Assembly: GCF_003024685.1 (NCBI RefSeq)
Contig: NZ_PYLQ01000011.1
Coordinates: 377-64,376 of the forward strand
DNA: 64,000 bases
Source: Faecalibacillus intestinalis
GTDB lineage: Bacteria > Bacillota_I > Bacilli_A > Erysipelotrichales > Coprobacillaceae
Direction of reading: 5' to 3'
Position numbers and translations under genes: made by a program. This document shows, piece after piece, positions 12,177 through 39,844 of the stretch. The notes beneath the pieces were generated by a model. That model had not been told where the DNA came from, did not search any database, and was given only the letters and a program-made list of their open reading frames with translations. Position 1 is the stretch's first letter, and every line of letters begins with the position of its first letter.

Positions 12177-12899
12177 CTATTTTTTGATGTATTTCATTTT
12201 TTCATTTTTTATAAAAACCCAATGATCATCATTTGAATCATTTTCACTAAAATGATAATCATCGATTACAATTTCTTTTATTTGTTTAATATCTTCAATA
12301 TGATGTTCAATCAAATAATTGAGCATCATTCCTCTTGCTTTTTTTAAATACACGGCATTTCGTTTAAAAGTATGCCCATTTCTTATCACAAAATCAAGTT
12401 GAATGATTGGAAGATCAAACATTTTTTCATATTCTTTCGTACTTAAAGAAAGAATAACATCTTCATTTTTTAAATAATCATTTAGTTCTTTATACCAATA
12501 TTGATATAAATTTATTTCATTTAATTTATGTTTCATTTCTAAACGATGATAATTTACAGCATCATTATAACGTAAAATTCCATAAAGTGGAGAATTAATT
12601 AGTAAATGCTTATCTAAATAATCCCATTCTTCTTTTTGATAATTCTTTAAATCAAGCTGTTTAAAAACAACGCCATTAAATAAATTTATGGCTGCAAAAG
12701 TTTCCTCATTATGAAAATAATCATAAATTAATGAAGATTGTTTAAAAGAAATCTTCATCAAATCATGAATTTGATTAATATCTAATTCTTTTAATTGTTT
12801 TCTTAAAGATTCTGCTTTATTAAAAAACAATGGTGTTTGTTTTTCAATAGGAAAATGCTTTTCTTTTAAACTTTTTGCATCAGCAATTATAATTTTCAT
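12177..12899 (-). CDS. yaaA: YaaA family peroxide-stress protein
   Basis: A 240-residue member of the YaaA/UPF0246 family: MKIIIADAKSLK start, SLIYDYF and AINLFNGVVFKQL blocks, and a late cluster IRNGHTFKRNAVYLKKARG. In E. coli YaaA lowers free iron and limits DNA damage during H2O2 stress; the mechanism is not settled. The start at 12899 is preferred over an ATG 18 bases upstream because GGTGAAG lies between them at the right spacing. It is transcribed ahead of gpsA-tagD, whose ribosome binding site covers its stop codon. Confidence 0.88.
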   Translation of the reverse strand: MKIIIADAKSLKEKHFPIEKQTPLFFNKAESLRKQLKELDINQIHDLMKISFKQSSLIYDYFHNEETFAAINLFNGVVFKQLDLKNYQKEEWDYLDKHLLINSPLYGILRYNDAVNYHRLEMKHKLNEINLYQYWYKELNDYLKNEDVILSLSTKEYEKMFDLPIIQLDFVIRNGHTFKRNAVYLKKARGMMLNYLIEHHIEDIKQIKEIVIDDYHFSENDSNDDHWVFIKNEKMKYIKK

Positions 12900-20000: not shown

Positions 20001-22596
20001 AACAGATAAAACAGGAAATAAAACAACATTAAATAAGATTACAGTTAACTGGGAAAAAGTTAAAAAACCAACCGTAGAAAGCAAAGTATATACAGGACAA
20101 ACATTAACTGCAAATATTTCAGAAAATGGTTTATACACAGTTAAAGAAAATAATGGTGGTATTGATGTAAATGAATATGATGTTCAATTGACTTTAAAAG
20201 ATCCTACAAATTATAGATGGGAAGACGGTACTATTGATACAACAGTAAAATTCAATATTACCCAAGCAACACCAGTTGTTACGAAACCAACAACAAAACC
20301 ACTAACATATAATGGAAGTGAACAAGAATTAGTAAATGCAGCATCTACTAATGGAGGAACAGTAAAATATTCTTTAGACAACAAAAACTGGTCAACATCA
20401 ATTCCAACAGGGAAAGAGGCCAAAGAATATACAGTTTATTACAAAGTAGAAGGAAATAAAAACTTTAAAGATGTAGATGTACAAGAAATCACAAATAAAA
20501 TCAATCCTAGAACAATTGATTTAAACTGGAATAAAGAGTTAACTTACAATGGTAAAGAACAATTACCAACAGCTACAGTTAATAACTTAGCAGATGGTGA
20601 TAAATGTGAAGTTACTGTTGCAGGTGCAAATAGAAATGCAGGTACTTATGAAGCTACAGCTACAAAAGTAAGTAATCAAAATTATAAGTTACCTGAAGAT
20701 GTCACAACAAGTTATACAATTAAACCAAAAGATATCACTGTTACAATAACACCTAATGGTGGTACTTATGGTGAAAAAATTACAGGTGCTACAGCTAAGT
20801 TAAATGATGTAGAAAATGGCGATCATCCAGAAGTAACATTAACTTACACAGGAACAGGGTATGATGGAACAGAAGTTAATGGAACAGAAGTTCCTAGTCA
20901 TGCTGGTAAATATACTGTTACAGTAAGTATCAATGACAAAAACTATAATTTAACTGGTACAAATACAGCTGAATTTGTAGTAAAAGGTGCAGATGCTAGA
21001 TTAAAAGTAAAAGAAATGAATGATAAAAAATATGGTGATCAAGGATTTAAATTAGAAGTATCTCATAAAGGAAATGGAAAATTATCTTATTCAAGTAGTA
21101 ATGAGGATGTAGCTACAGTAGATGATCAAGGTAATGTAACAATTCATAATGCTGGTACAACAAAATTAAAAGTTACATTAGGAGTTGATCATAACTATGA
21201 TAGTGATAGTAAAGAAGTAACATTAACTGTTAATAAAATCAATCATGAAATAGCAGTTGATCAAAAAGATGTTGAAAAGACTTATGGTGATGAAGCATTT
21301 ACAATTCATGCTCAAAGTAAAGATCATGAATCAGCTATTGAATATGCAAGTAGCGATGAAAAAGTAGCTACAGTAGATAGTGAAGGTAATGTAGTTATCA
21401 AAGGCGCAGGTAAAGTCATCATTACAGTAAGTCAAAAAGAAAGTAAGAATTATAAAAAAGTATCTAAAGAAATAAATCTTACTGTTAAAGCTAAAAAGAT
21501 TACAGTTACTGTAAATGATGCATCAAAGACATATGGAGATGAAGACTCTGAATTTACATATGTAAATGATAAACTTATTGGTAATGATAAATTAACAAGT
21601 ATCATTCTTACAAGAGAAGAAGGAGAAGATGTAGGAACATATAAGATAAAAGTAAGTCAAAAAGAAGGATCAAATCCAAATTATGATATTACTTTTAAAG
21701 ATGGAACATATACAATTAATCCATTATCGATTGATAAAGGAACAGTTGTATTAGGAAATGTCTTAAAATATACAGGAGAAAAACAAACACAAGAAGTAGA
21801 ACAAGTTTTAGTCAATGGAAAAGCATTAAATAAAGAAGATTATGAAGTATTAGATAATCAAGCAACGAAAGAAGGAAAACATGTTCTAACAATCAAAGCT
21901 AAAGGAAATAACCATACAGGATCCTTTAAATATAGCTATGCAATCTTACCAAAAGAAAATGATAAGATAGGAACAGGATCATTTACTGTTAAAACAACAG
22001 GAGATGTAGAAATAAGTAGAGATGAAATTATAGATCTCCTTATTGAAAACAAAGAAATAACAGCAAATGAATTAAGTGAAGTAGCAGAAGGTAAGAAAAT
22101 AGAAATCGTATTAGAGGTAAAAGAAGCACAAACAAATGAACTTATTGAAACAAATACAAAAGGATATAAAGTAGGAAAATACTTAAATATTACTTTAAAT
22201 AAAATAGTTAATGGAACAAGTGAAAGTATACATGAACTTACAAAAGTCATGAAAGTAACAATCAAAGTTCCAGAAGAACTAATCAATAAAGATAGTAAAA
22301 CTAAAAGAGAATACTATATCGCAAGAAGTCATAATGGAAAAGTAGATATCTTAGAAACAAAATATAATGAAAAGACAAACAGCTTAACATTTGAAACAGA
22401 TAAGTTCAGTGATTATGCAATTCTTTATAAAGATAAAAAAGAATTAAAAACAACGGTAACTACTTCAATAAATAAATCAAATACAAAACAAACAATGAAA
22501 GCTAAAACGGGAGATAATGCAAATATTATAGGATTAATGATGCTACTAGTAAGCAGTATGTTTGTGATGGTATTTGTAAGAAAAAAAGAAAATTAA
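17026..22596 (+). CDS. Large cell-surface protein with MBG/Ig-like repeats
   Basis: A secreted, membrane-anchored protein of 1856 residues. A signal peptide (residues 1-29, ending NVFAAD) is followed by a beta-helix-like region (about 90-250: NMNGHTFTYSG, GNSGTMTINGSGG). Then comes a His/Cys element with HVHKW and two cysteines (about 280-310), and a long array of MBG/YDG-type modules (repeated YNGK..P.A.V, GTY.ATA..LSN.NYKLP) with Big_2-like units (SSSNEDVATVDDQGNVTI, ASSDEKVATVDSEGNVVI) at about 1325-1480. The C terminus is AKTGDN at about 1825, a hydrophobic helix and RKKEN: a sorting-signal layout without LP. It has GGGGAGG before the ATG. Adhesion is the likely role; no ligand can be named. 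Confidence 0.93.
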   Translation: MKIKIKKIIASVLTFMMVFTQVPVNVFAADTNISNDGNTYRTSTPGTYNLPGGTYYTKKYSTWADAGTKVYIQYDSSKKGTIALNILGDVVNNPEKSGRFDFIRADSNTDVTINMNGHTFTYSGNDVYSLCGFVGNSGTMTINGSGGTIVSDEVGFNSIEGVLNVNDATIKANSIGIYNKGTELKEAVLKLKNITFENCGTDVKLGSNGTIDLSEYNGNAITIDIDYEINDGKKHRISPRGVSKADLNKIKFVKNSGKLYKVDLKYDDEGQYIYLAKHVHKWNYVLDNSDESGKTIKGYCSEEERNNECDYQNPDTTTAKIVLKTQNGEYNRGTNAWVENANGKNTNSFPISGDSYKLTYYQNGQQLSQRPKEPGDYSVTLTMDQVSVSGEFTITKAKYWTNKIYFKDKNWNKQDSCEYTYQGYQSKFGPYVEVNTGNGHYYVPTDARVSYEYKKYDDDDSAYKSISLDELNSLKPGTYCIRGVVSENNHYLSLTTESLKFTVTKAKPTPPSIVKYTWEYGEQPELVPESKLNNCQYSFKYYYRDTDVEVDKEYPDVGKYYLSIYNSGSDLYKPGYAPQKFITITQRTATLSWELDGTNTFKIPYDGKPHVPTATVINTVGDDKCNVTVSGEQTDVGTYTATATGLSNSNYKLPAQKTVTFEIVKAQREAPTSVTATGTTYKGGTDGKLNNVDSSMEYRKDGENEWHSITGDTVEGLSTGKYYVRYKDSKNYYESSEKEVYIANGQEIKVNVPGSQVGYTLSVSNTVVDYNESSTLTFKLNKGYSKTKDFAVKVNGETVQLNNNNQYTIKNIQKDTDITVEGVADITAPDTEIKVSNKTWKSILNKITFGLFFKETQKAEITATDEGSGVNKYYYYVDKSGSEESLTEKQLQAVDWKEGTSVTFSEDSNYVIYAKVTDKAGNIKYVSTDGIVIDTIAPQVSGVESNQTYTKTQTFTVTDNNLDTVKVDGKTVEPTNGSYTLVPKKGTYTIEVTDKTGNKTTLNKITVNWEKVKKPTVESKVYTGQTLTANISENGLYTVKENNGGIDVNEYDVQLTLKDPTNYRWEDGTIDTTVKFNITQATPVVTKPTTKPLTYNGSEQELVNAASTNGGTVKYSLDNKNWSTSIPTGKEAKEYTVYYKVEGNKNFKDVDVQEITNKINPRTIDLNWNKELTYNGKEQLPTATVNNLADGDKCEVTVAGANRNAGTYEATATKVSNQNYKLPEDVTTSYTIKPKDITVTITPNGGTYGEKITGATAKLNDVENGDHPEVTLTYTGTGYDGTEVNGTEVPSHAGKYTVTVSINDKNYNLTGTNTAEFVVKGADARLKVKEMNDKKYGDQGFKLEVSHKGNGKLSYSSSNEDVATVDDQGNVTIHNAGTTKLKVTLGVDHNYDSDSKEVTLTVNKINHEIAVDQKDVEKTYGDEAFTIHAQSKDHESAIEYASSDEKVATVDSEGNVVIKGAGKVIITVSQKESKNYKKVSKEINLTVKAKKITVTVNDASKTYGDEDSEFTYVNDKLIGNDKLTSIILTREEGEDVGTYKIKVSQKEGSNPNYDITFKDGTYTINPLSIDKGTVVLGNVLKYTGEKQTQEVEQVLVNGKALNKEDYEVLDNQATKEGKHVLTIKAKGNNHTGSFKYSYAILPKENDKIGTGSFTVKTTGDVEISRDEIIDLLIENKEITANELSEVAEGKKIEIVLEVKEAQTNELIETNTKGYKVGKYLNITLNKIVNGTSESIHELTKVMKVTIKVPEELINKDSKTKREYYIARSHNGKVDILETKYNEKTNSLTFETDKFSDYAILYKDKKELKTTVTTSINKSNTKQTMKAKTGDNANIIGLMMLLVSSMFVMVFVRKKEN

Positions 22597-33514: not shown

Positions 33515-33751
33515 ATGGAATTATTAGAAAGAATAAGATTTATTACTAATAGCGACTATATTTCAGATTTAGCATGTAATCGTTATTTAACTTTCTATCA
33601 ATTTCATGAAATTGAAGAAATTAATATTGATGATTATTCTTTAAAAGAATGGAACGATGCAGCAAAATATGTGAGTAATCAAAATAAAGAATTTAATAAT
33701 AGTTTAGATGCTAAAAAATATATATGTTCTATATTAATGCATAAGGAGTAG
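33515..33751 (+). CDS. Small orphan protein, 78 residues
   Basis: I do not recognise the family. It is acidic and soluble, with the blocks ELLERIRFITNSDYIS and IDDYSLKEWNDAAKYV and no signal peptide. GAGAGGATTTAGGG precedes the ATG and a terminator follows, so it is a real short gene. A paralog with the same blocks (ELLEKIR, IDDYSLDEWNNAIKYI) is at 39593, truncated by a stop. The two flank the c-di-GMP-controlled adhesin gene, so a regulatory or accessory role is possible. Confidence 0.78.
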   Translation: MELLERIRFITNSDYISDLACNRYLTFYQFHEIEEINIDDYSLKEWNDAAKYVSNQNKEFNNSLDAKKYICSILMHKE

Positions 33752-33767
33752 CAATACTCCTTTTTTG
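33743..33767 (+). terminator. Rho-independent terminator
   Basis: Stem AGGAGT/ACTCCT (33744-33749, 33756-33761), then six Ts; overlaps the stop of the small orphan gene and abuts copy B of the three-half-site element. Confidence 0.85.
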
Positions 33768-33791: not shown

Positions 33792-33854
33792 AGGAAAATG
33801 AATAGTATTCATTTTTATTAAAATATATTTTATATTATAGGCGTAGTTAGATAT

Positions 33855-33923
33855 ATTCAGCAAAGTAATCGAAAGGTTATGACGCAAAGCTAAAGGGGCT
33901 TTAAAATGCTAGCCAGTTGCAAT
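33855..33923 (+). ncRNA. Cyclic di-GMP-I (GEMM) riboswitch aptamer
   Basis: Conserved GEMM-I parts are present in order: the 5' P1 strand ending AGCAA; P2 as TAATC-GAAA-GGTTA, with the GAAA tetraloop that docks on the receptor; the invariant TGACGCAAAGC; a P3 hairpin (TAAAG/CTTTA); and the 3' AGCCAGTTGC that closes P1. It lies in the 5' leader of the Cna-B adhesin gene, 50 bases before its start codon. c-di-GMP binding would control that gene. Confidence 0.92.
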
Positions 33924-33946
33924 AGGATTTGTAAATGGCTTTTTGT
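33911..33946 (+). terminator. Riboswitch expression platform: overlapping terminator
   Basis: AGCCA (33911-33915) pairs with TGGCT (33936-33940), and TTGCAA with TTGTAA inside it (one G-U pair, 6-base loop), followed by TTTTTGT. The left arm is the 3' strand of the aptamer, so ligand binding should prevent this terminator and switch the gene on. Confidence 0.7.
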
Positions 33947-33973
33947 ATTTTAAATTAAGGGAAGGTGTAAAAG

Positions 33974-36900
33974 ATGAAAAAAATATTTAAAAAGTTTAAA
34001 GGAATATTTTGTTTTACGATATGTTTATGTATTGCAGTCGCAACATTCCAAGTAGGTGTATTTGCCGAGGAATCAGGTGTCATTGTTAATTCAAAGTTAT
34101 TACAAAATAATGATGGTACTGTTTATGGTAATGGAATACTAAGTGGTTTAGGAGATAATGGAACGCCTGAGTTAAATCAATTATGTTATAACAAAGAGAC
34201 AGGAGAAAATAGAGGCTATGATAATTCTCAAGCAAATGATATCGTATGTTCTTTTGATACTGTTACATATAGGGTCAATACGACTCTTCAAAATTTAGGT
34301 AATGTTAATCATACAATTACTTATGAATTTATTATTCCAAATGATGATGAATTAGTTTTATCAACACAAACTGTAACATCGGATAAAATACCTGAACCAG
34401 TCATTGATGGTAATAATAAAATCTATACGATTTCAAAAGAATTAAATGTAAATGAGTATAATGGTGGAGCTATTGGTGTAGGATTTGGTTTACAAATTAA
34501 AAATAAACATCAAGATGATACAATTGAACCAACAATTAATGTTTATGTAGATAATGATAAAAATCATATGTCTACTGTTGATAATATGAAGCCAGTTATT
34601 GTTACAACTGCCCCAATGTACAATATCGTTTTAAAAAAGAAAACTGAAACAATAAAACTCGCTGAATATGATTTTGATAGTGATCATACAGGTTATTATG
34701 GTAATCCTTTATTAAATGGAAAAGATAAAGATATTAAAGGATATAAAATTAATTATGGTGTTGCTTTAGAAGTAAGAAAACCAGGTAATGGAATGAGAGG
34801 AGTTGAATTACCTGATCCAACAAAACCATTTAAATTTGATGTTGATTTAAGTGAATTTACTGTAAATGGTATAAATGCATCTAGTGATTTTACGCCTTTA
34901 TTATATAGAGTGTGTGAAAATAAAAGAGATGGCGATGCAGTAACTGATATAGCATATTCAAATAAAAATGCTTCTGGTAATGCTAATGATCGTATTTATT
35001 GTAGTAATAGTGGAAATTACGTAGTTACACAAGAAGGTACGACTTTACATTTTGAAGTTACTGGATACGATACTGATTTTAATCATTTCCCAACTGGCTA
35101 TGAAAATATGCCTATTGGTTATTCAAATGGGGATATTAATTCAATTTTAGAAGGTGTTTTCTCTACACAACAATTTCAAGTAGTATATCCTAATAACAAT
35201 GAAACAACATCTTTATCATCATATAATCCTGATACAACAGGAAAAACTAATATAAGTGCAACAGCTAAAGTCATCAATATGCATGCATATTCTGAAGTTG
35301 ATGGTAATGTAACTACAAAAGAAACTAAAATAGATGATAATAAACAAACATCAAATTGGGATAATACAAGTCCAGGTAGTAGAAATCAAAGTATTTTTTA
35401 CAGTTCTACATCAAATAAAAAAACATGGACTGATGAATATACTCCTGGAAAGAAATTTACTAACGTAGATGGGGATATTGCTGCTGTTGGAGCAACTGAT
35501 TTAGGATTTACAGTAGGCTATGATCAAACGAATATTATTTCTGAAGATGGTAATATTAATAATTATCCAGTAGCTATAGATCAACTTGTTTTATTTAATA
35601 GAAATGCTTTTGATGAAGTAAAGATGAAAAATTTTTCAAGAGAAGATACTGGCTACAAATGTAAAATATCATATGGTATTTCTAATGATGGAGAAGCTTT
35701 AACTAATGAATCTATGAGAACTAAAAATTTAAGTGATTTTAAATTTTATGATAGTCTTGAAGATATGAAGGATGATTTGAAGAATAATGGTCGTAAACAA
35801 ACGTGTTGTGATGTTGTTTATGTGCAATATAGAGGTTGTCCAACAAAAAAAGGTAAACCTGATGTCAATTTACTTACGCAATTTACATCAAATTTAAAGA
35901 AAAATCCAAATATAGCAGATCAAGTATACATGGTTACCGCTGTTACTAACACATGGAGTATTAGTGATATGCAAGCATATGAACAAGATGTTCGAGAATA
36001 TAGAGGAAAAACAAATGGTGAAAAATTAAATTCAGAAGATTGGAAACAATGGATTTGGCATAAAACTGAACAAGGGAAAAAACCAGATGAACTATTTAAA
36101 AATATAAATCCTTCAAATGCTACACTTGACTATAGAAATGAATATACTGTTCCAACTTATGAAAATGGAGTTTATTCAGATAAAGTAACTCCAAATAATA
36201 ATATTACTTTTGCTGATGGTATTTATGTTGTCCCATATACAACAAGTATCACAAAACAAGTAGCTCAAAAGAGTAATGGAGAATCAAGAAAATTTTATAA
36301 TGTTTCTTCTAATGAAAGATATGTAGATTATAAAATTGATAGTAAAATGAGTTTTTGGGATAATGTAACTATTCCAGAGGGTTCTACAACAACAGTTTAT
36401 TTAGAAGATACTTTACCAGATGGTCTTACTTATATACCTAATAGTGCATATTGGGGTGGAAACTATAAATCACAATTTCCTAAAGAAGGTAAGGTAGAAG
36501 GTGGAAAAGCGATTGAACCTACAATAAGTACAAATGAAAATGGAAAAACTGTTTTAAAATGGAAAATTAAAAAAGTTAATTTAGTTAATGGAACTTTACC
36601 ATCACTTTATTATTCATGTAAAATTGGTAATACAACAGATCTTAATCAAGATGTAAATAATAATGATGTTTTACAAAATACAATTAATATACAGACAGAT
36701 GAAGATAAAAGACCGTTTACAACTTATAATAATAATGAAGTTACAACATCAATTATAGTTAATAAAAATAATGAATTTTATTTAGGTAAAACAGGTAAGT
36801 CTGTATTAGAACTAGAAGATAAAGGAGATTTTAATTTATTATTAAGTAATGTAAATTCTAATGCAAGAGATGATGTTTTTGCAGTTGATACAATGCCTCA

Positions 36901-39358
36901 AGATGGTTATGATGGAACAATCATGAAAGGAATTTATAAATTAACAGGGTTAACATTAGATAAAGCAGCTATTGGTGATGAAATAAATGATGTTGAAATT
37001 TGGTATACAAATAATGCTGAAAAATACGGAAGAAAAAAAGCAGATGGAATAAAAGCATCTGATGTTACAGAAGAAAATGGTTGGAAAAAGGCTGAAATAG
37101 TTGAAGAAAATGGAGAAGTAATAATTAAAGGTAAGGACTTGATTGGTGCATGGCCAACAGTTATTGCTTATAAAGATAAAAAATTAAAAGGAAATTGTTC
37201 TTTTAAATTAAAAATGGAATATGCTGCTATTGCTGCAGAAGGAGATCATTTACTTAATTCAATTTCTACATTACATCAAGATACTTTGCTTAGTGATGAT
37301 GCATCTGTAGATGTTGTTAAACGTTCATTAGAAGGAACTGTTTGGATTGATAAAGATAAAGATGGTAAATTGGAAGATGGTGAAAAAAGAGTAGAAAATG
37401 TTAAGGTGATTATTCTTAAGAAAAATGGTGATTGCTATGAATCATTTGAAGCTTATGAAGAAGTTGTACAAGATGGAGATATTTATAAAACAATTACACA
37501 TCCAACAACAATTACAACAGATAAAAACGGACATTACAAATTTGAAGGTTTACCTGAAGGTGAATATACAGTTGTTTTTGAATCATCTGATCAAACATCT
37601 TTAGAAAAATATGAAGCAACAATTGCTAATCAAGGTAGTGATAAAGAAAGTTCAAAAGTTACATCCGATAATATAGTTACAAAAAGTGAAACAGATCAAA
37701 GAATTGTAACAGGATCAATTCCTAATCTAACAATGCCTTCTAAAGAAGAAATGATTAATAACGGGCAATATGAATATAACTTACCAAATCAAAACTTAGG
37801 TTTAATTGAACCAATTATTCATATTAGTGGTGAAAAAATTTGGGATGATGTAGAAGACTACGATGGATTACGTCCAAATTCTATTGGAATACAAATAAAA
37901 AACGGTGATACAATTGTTAAAACAATTACTGTAACAAAAGATAATAATTGGAAATGGTCTGTTGATATGCCAAAATATGATAATCAAGGACAAGTAATTC
38001 AATATACAATAGATGAAGTAGATGTTGCTCATTATAATAAAACAATTAATTATGATGAAGATACAAAGAGTTATCAAATAACGAATAAACATAAGGTTGA
38101 AAAAATTACGATACCAGTTGAAAAAGTATGGAATGATAATAACAATAATGATGGTAAACGTACAAAACAAGTTATTGTTCATTTATATGCTGATGGTAAA
38201 GATACTGGAAAGACACTAACATTAAGTGATACTAATCATTGGAAAGATTCATTTGTTAATTTAGATCAATACAGCAATGGAAATAAAATTAATTATACTG
38301 TAAAAGAAGAAAAAGTGAATGGATATGAAATAGGATATACAGGTAGTCAAGATAAAGGCTATGTTATTACCAATACACATGATGTTGAAACAGTAGAAGT
38401 TAAAGGAACTAAAACATGGAATGATAATCATGATCAGGATGGAAAACGTCCTGAAAATATTACTGTTAGATTATATGCTGATGGTGTAGAAATTGCCTCA
38501 AAAGTAGTTGATAAAGATTCTAATTGGACATATGATTTTGGAAAACTTTCAAAATATAAAAAAGGAAAAGAAATCAATTATACAGTAGATGAAGATGAAG
38601 TAGCAGGTTATACTACAGAAATTAATAATTATGATATTACAAATACACATAAAATCTTAAAAACAAGTGTAAATGTAACAAAAGAATGGAATGATCAAGA
38701 TAATCAAGATGGTAAACGTGCTAAACAAGTTATTGTTCATTTATACGCTAATGGTAAAGATACTGGAAAAACATTAACTTTAAGTGATGATAATCAATGG
38801 ATTAGTTCATTTGATGATTTAAATCAATATAAAGATAGAAAAGAAATTGTTTATACAGTTCAAGAAGATGAAGTTAAAGGATATAAAGTAGGTATTACTG
38901 GAAATCAAAAGGATGGTTATATTATTACAAATAGTCATGATGTTGAAACTGTTCATCTTAAAGGAACTAAGACTTGGATTGATAATCATGATCAAGCACA
39001 TCAAAGACCTGATACTATTAGAGTACGTCTATATGCTGATGGAAAAGAAATTGCATTTCTAGATGTTTCAAAATCACAAGATTGGACATATGACTTTGGA
39101 AATCTTTCAAAATATAAAGAAGGAAAAGAAATCAATTATACAACCAGTGAAGATTATGTTAAAGGATATAATACATCTATTGATGGTATGAATATTACTA
39201 ATACTTATGTACCAGTTATAACAACAATTAAAAATGATGCAACTCAACATAAGTTATCTAAAATATTAACTGGAGATAATACAAATATTGTTTTATATTT
39301 AGGAATTTGCGTTTTAGCTATTATTGGATTGTATTTATTAAAGAAACAAAAGGCATAG
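33974..39358 (+). CDS. Giant Cna-B repeat surface adhesin, c-di-GMP riboswitch-controlled
   Basis: A 1794-residue cell-surface protein. Signal peptide 1-30 (VGVFAEE). About 30-1110: large extracellular region ending in a DUF11-like part (VYLEDTLPDGLTYIPNSAYWG). About 1119-1190: an SdrD-B-like domain (EGTVWIDKDKDG). About 1286-1750: five Cna-B domains, each with a K-x-W start, an E in YTV-x-E and a terminal ITNTH, which together are the residues that form internal Lys-Asn isopeptide bonds. The tail is KILTGDN at about 1764, a hydrophobic helix and KKQKA. Expression should depend on c-di-GMP through the leader. Similar c-di-GMP-controlled adhesins are known in Clostridioides difficile. Confidence 0.93.
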   Translation: MKKIFKKFKGIFCFTICLCIAVATFQVGVFAEESGVIVNSKLLQNNDGTVYGNGILSGLGDNGTPELNQLCYNKETGENRGYDNSQANDIVCSFDTVTYRVNTTLQNLGNVNHTITYEFIIPNDDELVLSTQTVTSDKIPEPVIDGNNKIYTISKELNVNEYNGGAIGVGFGLQIKNKHQDDTIEPTINVYVDNDKNHMSTVDNMKPVIVTTAPMYNIVLKKKTETIKLAEYDFDSDHTGYYGNPLLNGKDKDIKGYKINYGVALEVRKPGNGMRGVELPDPTKPFKFDVDLSEFTVNGINASSDFTPLLYRVCENKRDGDAVTDIAYSNKNASGNANDRIYCSNSGNYVVTQEGTTLHFEVTGYDTDFNHFPTGYENMPIGYSNGDINSILEGVFSTQQFQVVYPNNNETTSLSSYNPDTTGKTNISATAKVINMHAYSEVDGNVTTKETKIDDNKQTSNWDNTSPGSRNQSIFYSSTSNKKTWTDEYTPGKKFTNVDGDIAAVGATDLGFTVGYDQTNIISEDGNINNYPVAIDQLVLFNRNAFDEVKMKNFSREDTGYKCKISYGISNDGEALTNESMRTKNLSDFKFYDSLEDMKDDLKNNGRKQTCCDVVYVQYRGCPTKKGKPDVNLLTQFTSNLKKNPNIADQVYMVTAVTNTWSISDMQAYEQDVREYRGKTNGEKLNSEDWKQWIWHKTEQGKKPDELFKNINPSNATLDYRNEYTVPTYENGVYSDKVTPNNNITFADGIYVVPYTTSITKQVAQKSNGESRKFYNVSSNERYVDYKIDSKMSFWDNVTIPEGSTTTVYLEDTLPDGLTYIPNSAYWGGNYKSQFPKEGKVEGGKAIEPTISTNENGKTVLKWKIKKVNLVNGTLPSLYYSCKIGNTTDLNQDVNNNDVLQNTINIQTDEDKRPFTTYNNNEVTTSIIVNKNNEFYLGKTGKSVLELEDKGDFNLLLSNVNSNARDDVFAVDTMPQDGYDGTIMKGIYKLTGLTLDKAAIGDEINDVEIWYTNNAEKYGRKKADGIKASDVTEENGWKKAEIVEENGEVIIKGKDLIGAWPTVIAYKDKKLKGNCSFKLKMEYAAIAAEGDHLLNSISTLHQDTLLSDDASVDVVKRSLEGTVWIDKDKDGKLEDGEKRVENVKVIILKKNGDCYESFEAYEEVVQDGDIYKTITHPTTITTDKNGHYKFEGLPEGEYTVVFESSDQTSLEKYEATIANQGSDKESSKVTSDNIVTKSETDQRIVTGSIPNLTMPSKEEMINNGQYEYNLPNQNLGLIEPIIHISGEKIWDDVEDYDGLRPNSIGIQIKNGDTIVKTITVTKDNNWKWSVDMPKYDNQGQVIQYTIDEVDVAHYNKTINYDEDTKSYQITNKHKVEKITIPVEKVWNDNNNNDGKRTKQVIVHLYADGKDTGKTLTLSDTNHWKDSFVNLDQYSNGNKINYTVKEEKVNGYEIGYTGSQDKGYVITNTHDVETVEVKGTKTWNDNHDQDGKRPENITVRLYADGVEIASKVVDKDSNWTYDFGKLSKYKKGKEINYTVDEDEVAGYTTEINNYDITNTHKILKTSVNVTKEWNDQDNQDGKRAKQVIVHLYANGKDTGKTLTLSDDNQWISSFDDLNQYKDRKEIVYTVQEDEVKGYKVGITGNQKDGYIITNSHDVETVHLKGTKTWIDNHDQAHQRPDTIRVRLYADGKEIAFLDVSKSQDWTYDFGNLSKYKEGKEINYTTSEDYVKGYNTSIDGMNITNTYVPVITTIKNDATQHKLSKILTGDNTNIVLYLGICVLAIIGLYLLKKQKA
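38103..39218 (+). repeat. Tandem 558-bp duplication of a two-domain Cna-B unit
   Basis: Two units of 558 bases (38103-38660 and 38661-39218; 186 codons each) align without gaps. For example, CAAGTTATTGTTCATTTATA recurs at 38168 and 38726, and AAAGGAACTAA at 38402 and 38960. Each unit encodes two different Cna-B domains, so domains 2-3 were duplicated as a pair to give 4-5. Confidence 0.88.
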
Positions 39359-39592: not shown

Positions 39593-39844
39593 ATGAACGA
39601 AAAAATAGAATTGTTAGAAAAAATAAGAATTTCTACTGATAGAAATTATATTTCAGGTTTACGAAATAATATTGCTTTTACTTATACGCAAGTAAATAAG
39701 ATTCTATTTTTTTCAATAGATGATTATTCTTTAGATGAATGGAATAATGCTATCAAGTATATTAATTAAAAGGACCTTTCATTTAACACAAAAAAAGAGG
39801 TAAAAAAAATAATTATATACTCATGTTTATTAAAGCAAGATTAA
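39593..39844 (+). pseudogene. Paralog of the small orphan protein, truncated by a stop
   Basis: Begins MNEKIELLEKIRISTDRNYIS and contains IDDYSLDEWNNAIKYIN, matching the 78-residue protein at 33515, then meets TAA at 39767-39769 (58 residues). The same frame continues after the stop (KDLSFNTKKEVKKI, then CLLKQD) and matches the remaining part of the paralog, up to a second stop at 39842. So it is either a shortened working protein or a fresh pseudogene. A GAAAGG site lies upstream; a second ATG directly precedes the chosen one. Confidence 0.75.

Follow-up and report, generated by a model that had tools for sequence, protein, structure and literature searches.

The locus studied here raises the question of which signal controls the gene of a very large surface protein in Faecalibacillus intestinalis, and in which direction. 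The window that we analysed, a single stretch of 64,000 nucleotides, carries this gene at positions 33974-39358 of the + strand. The first-pass annotation had placed a cyclic di-GMP-I riboswitch in front of it. Scanning the whole window with cmscan confirmed this assignment: RF01051 (c-di-GMP-I, GEMM-I) matched positions 33849-33924 (+ strand) with 53.5 bits, above the gathering score of 35 bits (E = 1.2e-7 when the entire window is searched, 9.6e-10 when 500 bases are). The only other RNA family that reached its threshold was a 5S rRNA, at the window edge. The riboswitch is where it had been announced, but the proposed start, 33855, falls 6 bases inside the match.

The core of the aptamer was located on the alignment to the Rfam model. 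Vc2 numbers were transferred by means of the known Vc2 structure and of the model's own pairing, and we take position 20 to be the base immediately 5′ of G21, which pairs with C46. Pairs G33860-C33885 and C33861-G33884 correspond to G21-C46 and C22-G45 of Vc2, and A33886 corresponds to A47. The P2 hairpin (33865-33880 on the + strand, pairs 33865-33870/33875-33880), with its GAAA tetraloop at 33871-33874, was found in the alignment as well as in the fold. P3 spans 33888-33918 of the same strand, positions 33888-33899 facing the 3′ strand 33908-33918. C33920, also on the + strand, aligns with C92 and is expected to pair with the G of the ligand. With G21-C46, C22-G45, A47, a GAAA-type P2 loop, P3 and C92, the GEMM-I core is complete. 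The first-pass annotation, which had found every conserved GEMM-I element in place, nevertheless fails at one base. At 33859 (+ strand, position 11 of the Rfam model), an A is aligned to G20 of Vc2, the base involved in ligand discrimination. A G at this position is typical of the c-di-GMP-selective subtype; A33859 together with C33920 makes the combination of GEMM-Ib.

The distribution of A at position 20 (A20) was then considered. Two other GEMM-I copies of the same genome have G20 and score 62.9 and 81.4 bits, as compared to 53.5 bits for the window copy. More generally, all other GEMM-I copies in this genome and in that of a sister species are G20, A20 being confined to the orthologous adhesin leaders. 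The 81.4-bit copy (L001, 1501-1587, G000:C27) lies 3′ of the gene of an HD-domain protein and 5′ of that of a prepilin-type protein (1710-2168), an arrangement that suggests control of a pilus by c-di-GMP. At L002, a G20 GEMM-I precedes the gene of a solute-binding-like protein, a product read from the sequence alone. Across the Erysipelotrichales, 126 GEMM-I copies were found in 54 of 316 genomes, position 20 being G in 105, A in 19 and C in 2. Moreover, a pattern search for A20 in the c-di-GMP-I scaffold matched at least 119 sequences from named genomes, among them Clostridium, Paenibacillus, Cohnella, Butyrivibrio and Erysipelotrichaceae. A20 thus recurs as a natural variant and is not peculiar to the window locus. 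A sequencing error or a one-off change was ruled out by the sister leader, which keeps A20, and by the 19 copies of the order. Further alignment columns distinguish A20 from G20 aptamers, but here relatedness is a confounding factor. The order survey also showed tandem pairs of A20 GEMM-I before the gene of a secreted DUF5648 protein (L108, G061:C181; L111, G090:C2). In addition, it revealed a GEMM-I subgroup with GGTAAA...ACACAAA that has U-A instead of C22-G45 as its second core pair (for example G304:C4:56101, G303:C234:1398 and G291:C88:13577).

The direction of control was addressed by folding the leader. The unconstrained minimum free energy fold of 33841-33990 consists of a terminator hairpin and not of the complete aptamer. 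In this hairpin, AGCCA.UUGCAA pairs with UUGUAA.UGGCU across a six-base loop (pairs 33911-33915/33936-33940 and 33917-33922/33929-33934), and UUUUUG follows. The hairpin alone amounts to -11.7 kcal/mol and, with its U run, extends over 33911-33945 of the + strand; a simple terminator scanner misses it because of the internal mismatch. Its 5′ arm is the 3′ strand of the aptamer, with six bases of P3 (33913-33918) and C33920, whose partner in the terminator is G33931. Aptamer and terminator are therefore mutually exclusive, as the first-pass annotation had foreseen. When the aptamer was kept constant and the 49 bases downstream were shuffled, 17 of 1000 sequences had an overlapping terminator just as stable, so that a chance origin of the overlap, taken by itself, is only moderately unlikely. 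These 49 bases separate the end of the aptamer from the ATG at 33974, in agreement with the announced spacing of about 50 bases. Another intrinsic terminator, at 33743-33762 (+ strand), was found by terminator search and divides the leader from the small ORF that lies upstream.

Since the bound aptamer and the terminator share C33920 and bases of P3, the ligand should block termination, which supports the earlier prediction of an ON switch. An antitermination ON switch is the best reading of the leader, and we infer the same direction in the cell. At low levels of the cyclic dinucleotide, the 33929-33940 strand would capture the 3′ strand of the aptamer (33911-33922), the terminator would form and the polymerase would stop before the adhesin gene. 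Ligand binding during transcription would engage C33920 and lock P3, so that no terminator would form and the gene would be transcribed. A tally of ON and OFF copies over the whole order relied on a crude method of finding hairpins and serves only as an indication.

The locus was then compared with its counterpart in a sister species of the same genus (G002). There, locus L068 shows in order a glycosyl hydrolase, a small ORF, a G20 GEMM-I, an 817-residue fibro-slime/PA14/SHIRT protein, an A20 GEMM-I and a 1635-residue Cna_B protein. The latter is orthologous to the window adhesin, with 45% identity over the N-terminal 1100 residues. The A20 aptamer in front of it is 88% identical to that of the window. 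It overlaps the same terminator, the loop of which differs, through its 3′ strand and its ligand-binding C. Between the two species, the aptamer is better conserved than the adhesin, these two leaders being the only orthologous ones known. The G20/fibro-slime unit is absent from the window. The two GEMM-I of L068 (G002:C51, 9598-9673 and 12293-12374, - strand), one A20 and one G20, lie 2.6 kb from each other, and each precedes a large surface-protein gene of its own. A small ORF lacking a Pfam match lies 5′ of the riboswitch-adhesin unit in both species (33515-33748 in the window and 12498-12719, - strand, in L068; 68% identical). A second, diverged copy of this ORF (about 50% identical) is found 3′ of the window adhesin, at 39593-39766. 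The first-pass annotation had guessed an Erysipelotrichia-like host; the host indeed belongs to the Erysipelotrichales, in a family other than that of G061, G090 and G168, which are of the same order.

The product of the gene fits the large Cna_B surface protein that had been announced. Its 1794 residues comprise, in the translation and by Pfam, a signal peptide, an N-terminal region without assigned family, an SdrD_B domain, five Cna_B stretches (PF05738, E = 6.3e-111) and a C-terminus with ILTGD, a membrane helix and a KK tail. The N-terminal region, of about 1100 residues, shows weak DUF11-type similarity and no Pfam match to a recognised ligand-binding A region such as PF05737. Its AlphaFold2 model was unusable (mean pLDDT 38). 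A search of named genomes with weak N-terminal patterns confirmed no relatives of the adhesin. We infer a role in adhesion. The C-terminus, HKLSKILTGDNTNIVLYLGICVLAIIGLYLLKKQKA, does not contain the canonical LPXTG, ILTGD standing in its place. Three further surface proteins of the window end with AKTGD, VKTGD and a degenerate VQTDD, so that the lineage seems to use sorting signals without proline. Related proteins end with IKTGD, VKTGD and AKTGD, and the genome contains four sortase matches over the cut-off plus a weak one. Sorting signals devoid of the LP of LPXTG thus occur at the window C-termini at 22596, 31994, 33442 and 39358 as well as in surface proteins of L068, and sortase genes are present.

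Which ligand is sensed depends on the meaning of A20. G11 of the Bacillus thuringiensis riboswitch Bc3 is presumably the equivalent of Vc2 G20, a number that the passage on Bc3 does not give. In Bc3, Bc4 and Bc5, replacement of this binding-site G by A sharply lowered the response to c-di-GMP, and that passage reports no redirection (PMC4759541). In Geobacter GEMM-Ib RNAs, base 20 is A and the ligand is 3′,3′-cGAMP; mutation A20G in Gmet_0970 shifts selectivity to c-di-GMP (PMC6456294). Likewise, the G20A mutant of Vc2 binds cGAMP (PMC7288161; PMC6274999). By analogy with these mutants and variants, A20 predicts weaker sensing of c-di-GMP and possibly sensing of cGAMP. The natural A at this base, overlooked in the first-pass annotation, makes the identity of the ligand a fair matter for experiment.

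We consider it probable that the leader is a GEMM-I ON switch of the adhesin gene with c-di-GMP as its likeliest ligand and a raised threshold. Of the earlier statement that c-di-GMP turns the adhesin on, the direction is supported and the ligand is likely, with the proviso that the specificity base is A. The genome has 15 GGDEF matches, 5 EAL matches and an HD-domain protein adjoining another GEMM-I, and c-di-GMP would be made and degraded by these many proteins. Because its discriminating base is A and not G, the switch would need more c-di-GMP than its G20 sister switches, which would probably make the adhesin a high-threshold target. The genes behind the A20 copies argue in the same direction. 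In the order, they encode GGDEF-HD, GGDEF, flagellar rod, histidine kinase, solute-binding and surface proteins, and elsewhere in the Bacillota, GGDEF, HD-GYP, flagellar and surface proteins. As judged from these products, the A20 copies of the order appear to serve a c-di-GMP-type regulon, which favours c-di-GMP.

Rather unlikely, in our view, is that the same ON device senses 3′,3′-cGAMP, alone or with c-di-GMP. The combination of A20 with C92 and the changes of selectivity observed in Gmet_0970 and Vc2 speak for it, as does the fact that the orthologous leader keeps A20 while the other GEMM-I copies of both genomes are G20. The window leader further resembles Geobacter GEMM-Ib in keeping A20 and C92 (PMC6456294), and in the Geobacter pilM switch, which is ON, the ligand-pairing C is taken up by a terminator (PMC9262584). 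However, Geobacter has serine-type Hypr GGDEF cGAMP synthases, whereas none was seen among the GGDEFs read in the genome studied here, and no SMODS enzyme was found in it. The source would be a GGDEF enzyme relaxed in its base recognition, for which the N-type protein of this genome at G000:C22:11414-11869 is a candidate. In such proteins, the motif is intact and Asn takes the place of the Asp of ordinary enzymes (PleD D344) and of the Ser of Hypr enzymes. They were observed at this locus (L007) and at L175 (G001), L176 (G002), L180 (G003), L182 and L221 (G028) and L223 (G050), in a search seeded with an N-type query in which N is over-represented. G000, G002, G028 and G050 would fit a link between N-type enzymes and A20. 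Nevertheless, G001 and G003 encode the N-type and lack A20, so that the association is only suggestive. Conversely, all GGDEFs read in the A20 genomes G061, G090, G120 and G168 have D at the base-reading site. We accordingly do not take A20 to prove cGAMP sensing, A20 GEMM-I being common in the Bacillota and placed before c-di-GMP-type genes. A wider version, which we hold to be quite improbable, would put the adhesin under 3′,3′-cGAMP or the balance between cGAMP and c-di-GMP through the A20 switch, with a new promiscuous N-type GGDEF as the source and the neighbouring G20 and A20 switches of the sister species reading the two dinucleotides separately. If true, it would mean GGDEF-made cGAMP signalling in Gram-positive bacteria.

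Instead of a change of ligand, A20 may reflect decay. The aptamer would then bind too weakly at cellular ligand levels, and the leader would for the most part be an attenuator that acts constitutively and lets some transcription through. The score of 53.5 bits is lower than those of the other copies of the genome, the G to A change lowers the response of Bc3-5 (PMC4759541), and several class I copies of C. difficile are non-functional (PMC6200980). We find this doubtful to a marked degree: the aptamer has remained 88% identical to that of the ortholog as compared to 45% for the adhesin, its core and C92 are intact, and A20 recurs before intact genes in 19 of 126 copies.

The preferred reading, an ON switch with c-di-GMP as the likeliest ligand, was compared with known systems. 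Bc2-cap/cbpA of B. thuringiensis comes closest: antitermination by a class I aptamer acting as an ON switch was shown experimentally for it (PMC4933901). As predicted for the window, a GEMM-I ON switch directly precedes the gene of a large cell-wall adhesin with Cna_B repeats, in this case a collagen adhesin (PMC4933901, PMC7423583). CbpA differs by its recognised collagen-binding region, its 17 Cna_B units and its LPXTG; the protein of the window ends with ILTGD, has five Cna_B stretches and shows no binding domain that is recognised. The host lineages also differ. For Bc3-Bc4-Bc5, antitermination was proposed and tested with reporters, and the terminator takes up P1, some of P3 and the C that binds the ligand, which gives an ON switch before a surface-protein operon (PMC4759541). 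These elements resemble the window leader in this design. They form a triple tandem with a binding-site G, whereas the window leader naturally carries the A that lowers their response sharply (PMC4759541).

The comparison with C. difficile adhesins made in the first-pass annotation holds for the ON logic but not for the RNA class. The sortase-dependent surface proteins CD630_28310 and CD630_32460 are turned on by c-di-GMP through class II riboswitches (PMC6200980), which are unrelated to GEMM-I, and class I is OFF in that species (PMC6200980, PMC6366702). That the window leader works as an OFF switch in which ligand binding favours termination, like the functional class I riboswitches of C. 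difficile (PMC6366702), is highly improbable, because a single terminator was found from the aptamer to the gene, and it depends on the 3′ strand of the aptamer and on the ligand-pairing C.

Overall, the leader is best read as a further GEMM-I ON switch placed in front of a Cna_B adhesin gene, a design already known from Bacillus. The natural A20 offers a clean test case for the ligand of the many A20 GEMM-I RNAs of the Bacillota. In the sister species, with G20 and A20 switches only 2.6 kb apart, the effect of base 20 on threshold or ligand choice would be measurable side by side. The window locus extends the pairing of a GEMM-I ON switch with a Cna_B adhesin from Bacillus to the Erysipelotrichales, where it would tie attachment to the level of a cyclic dinucleotide.
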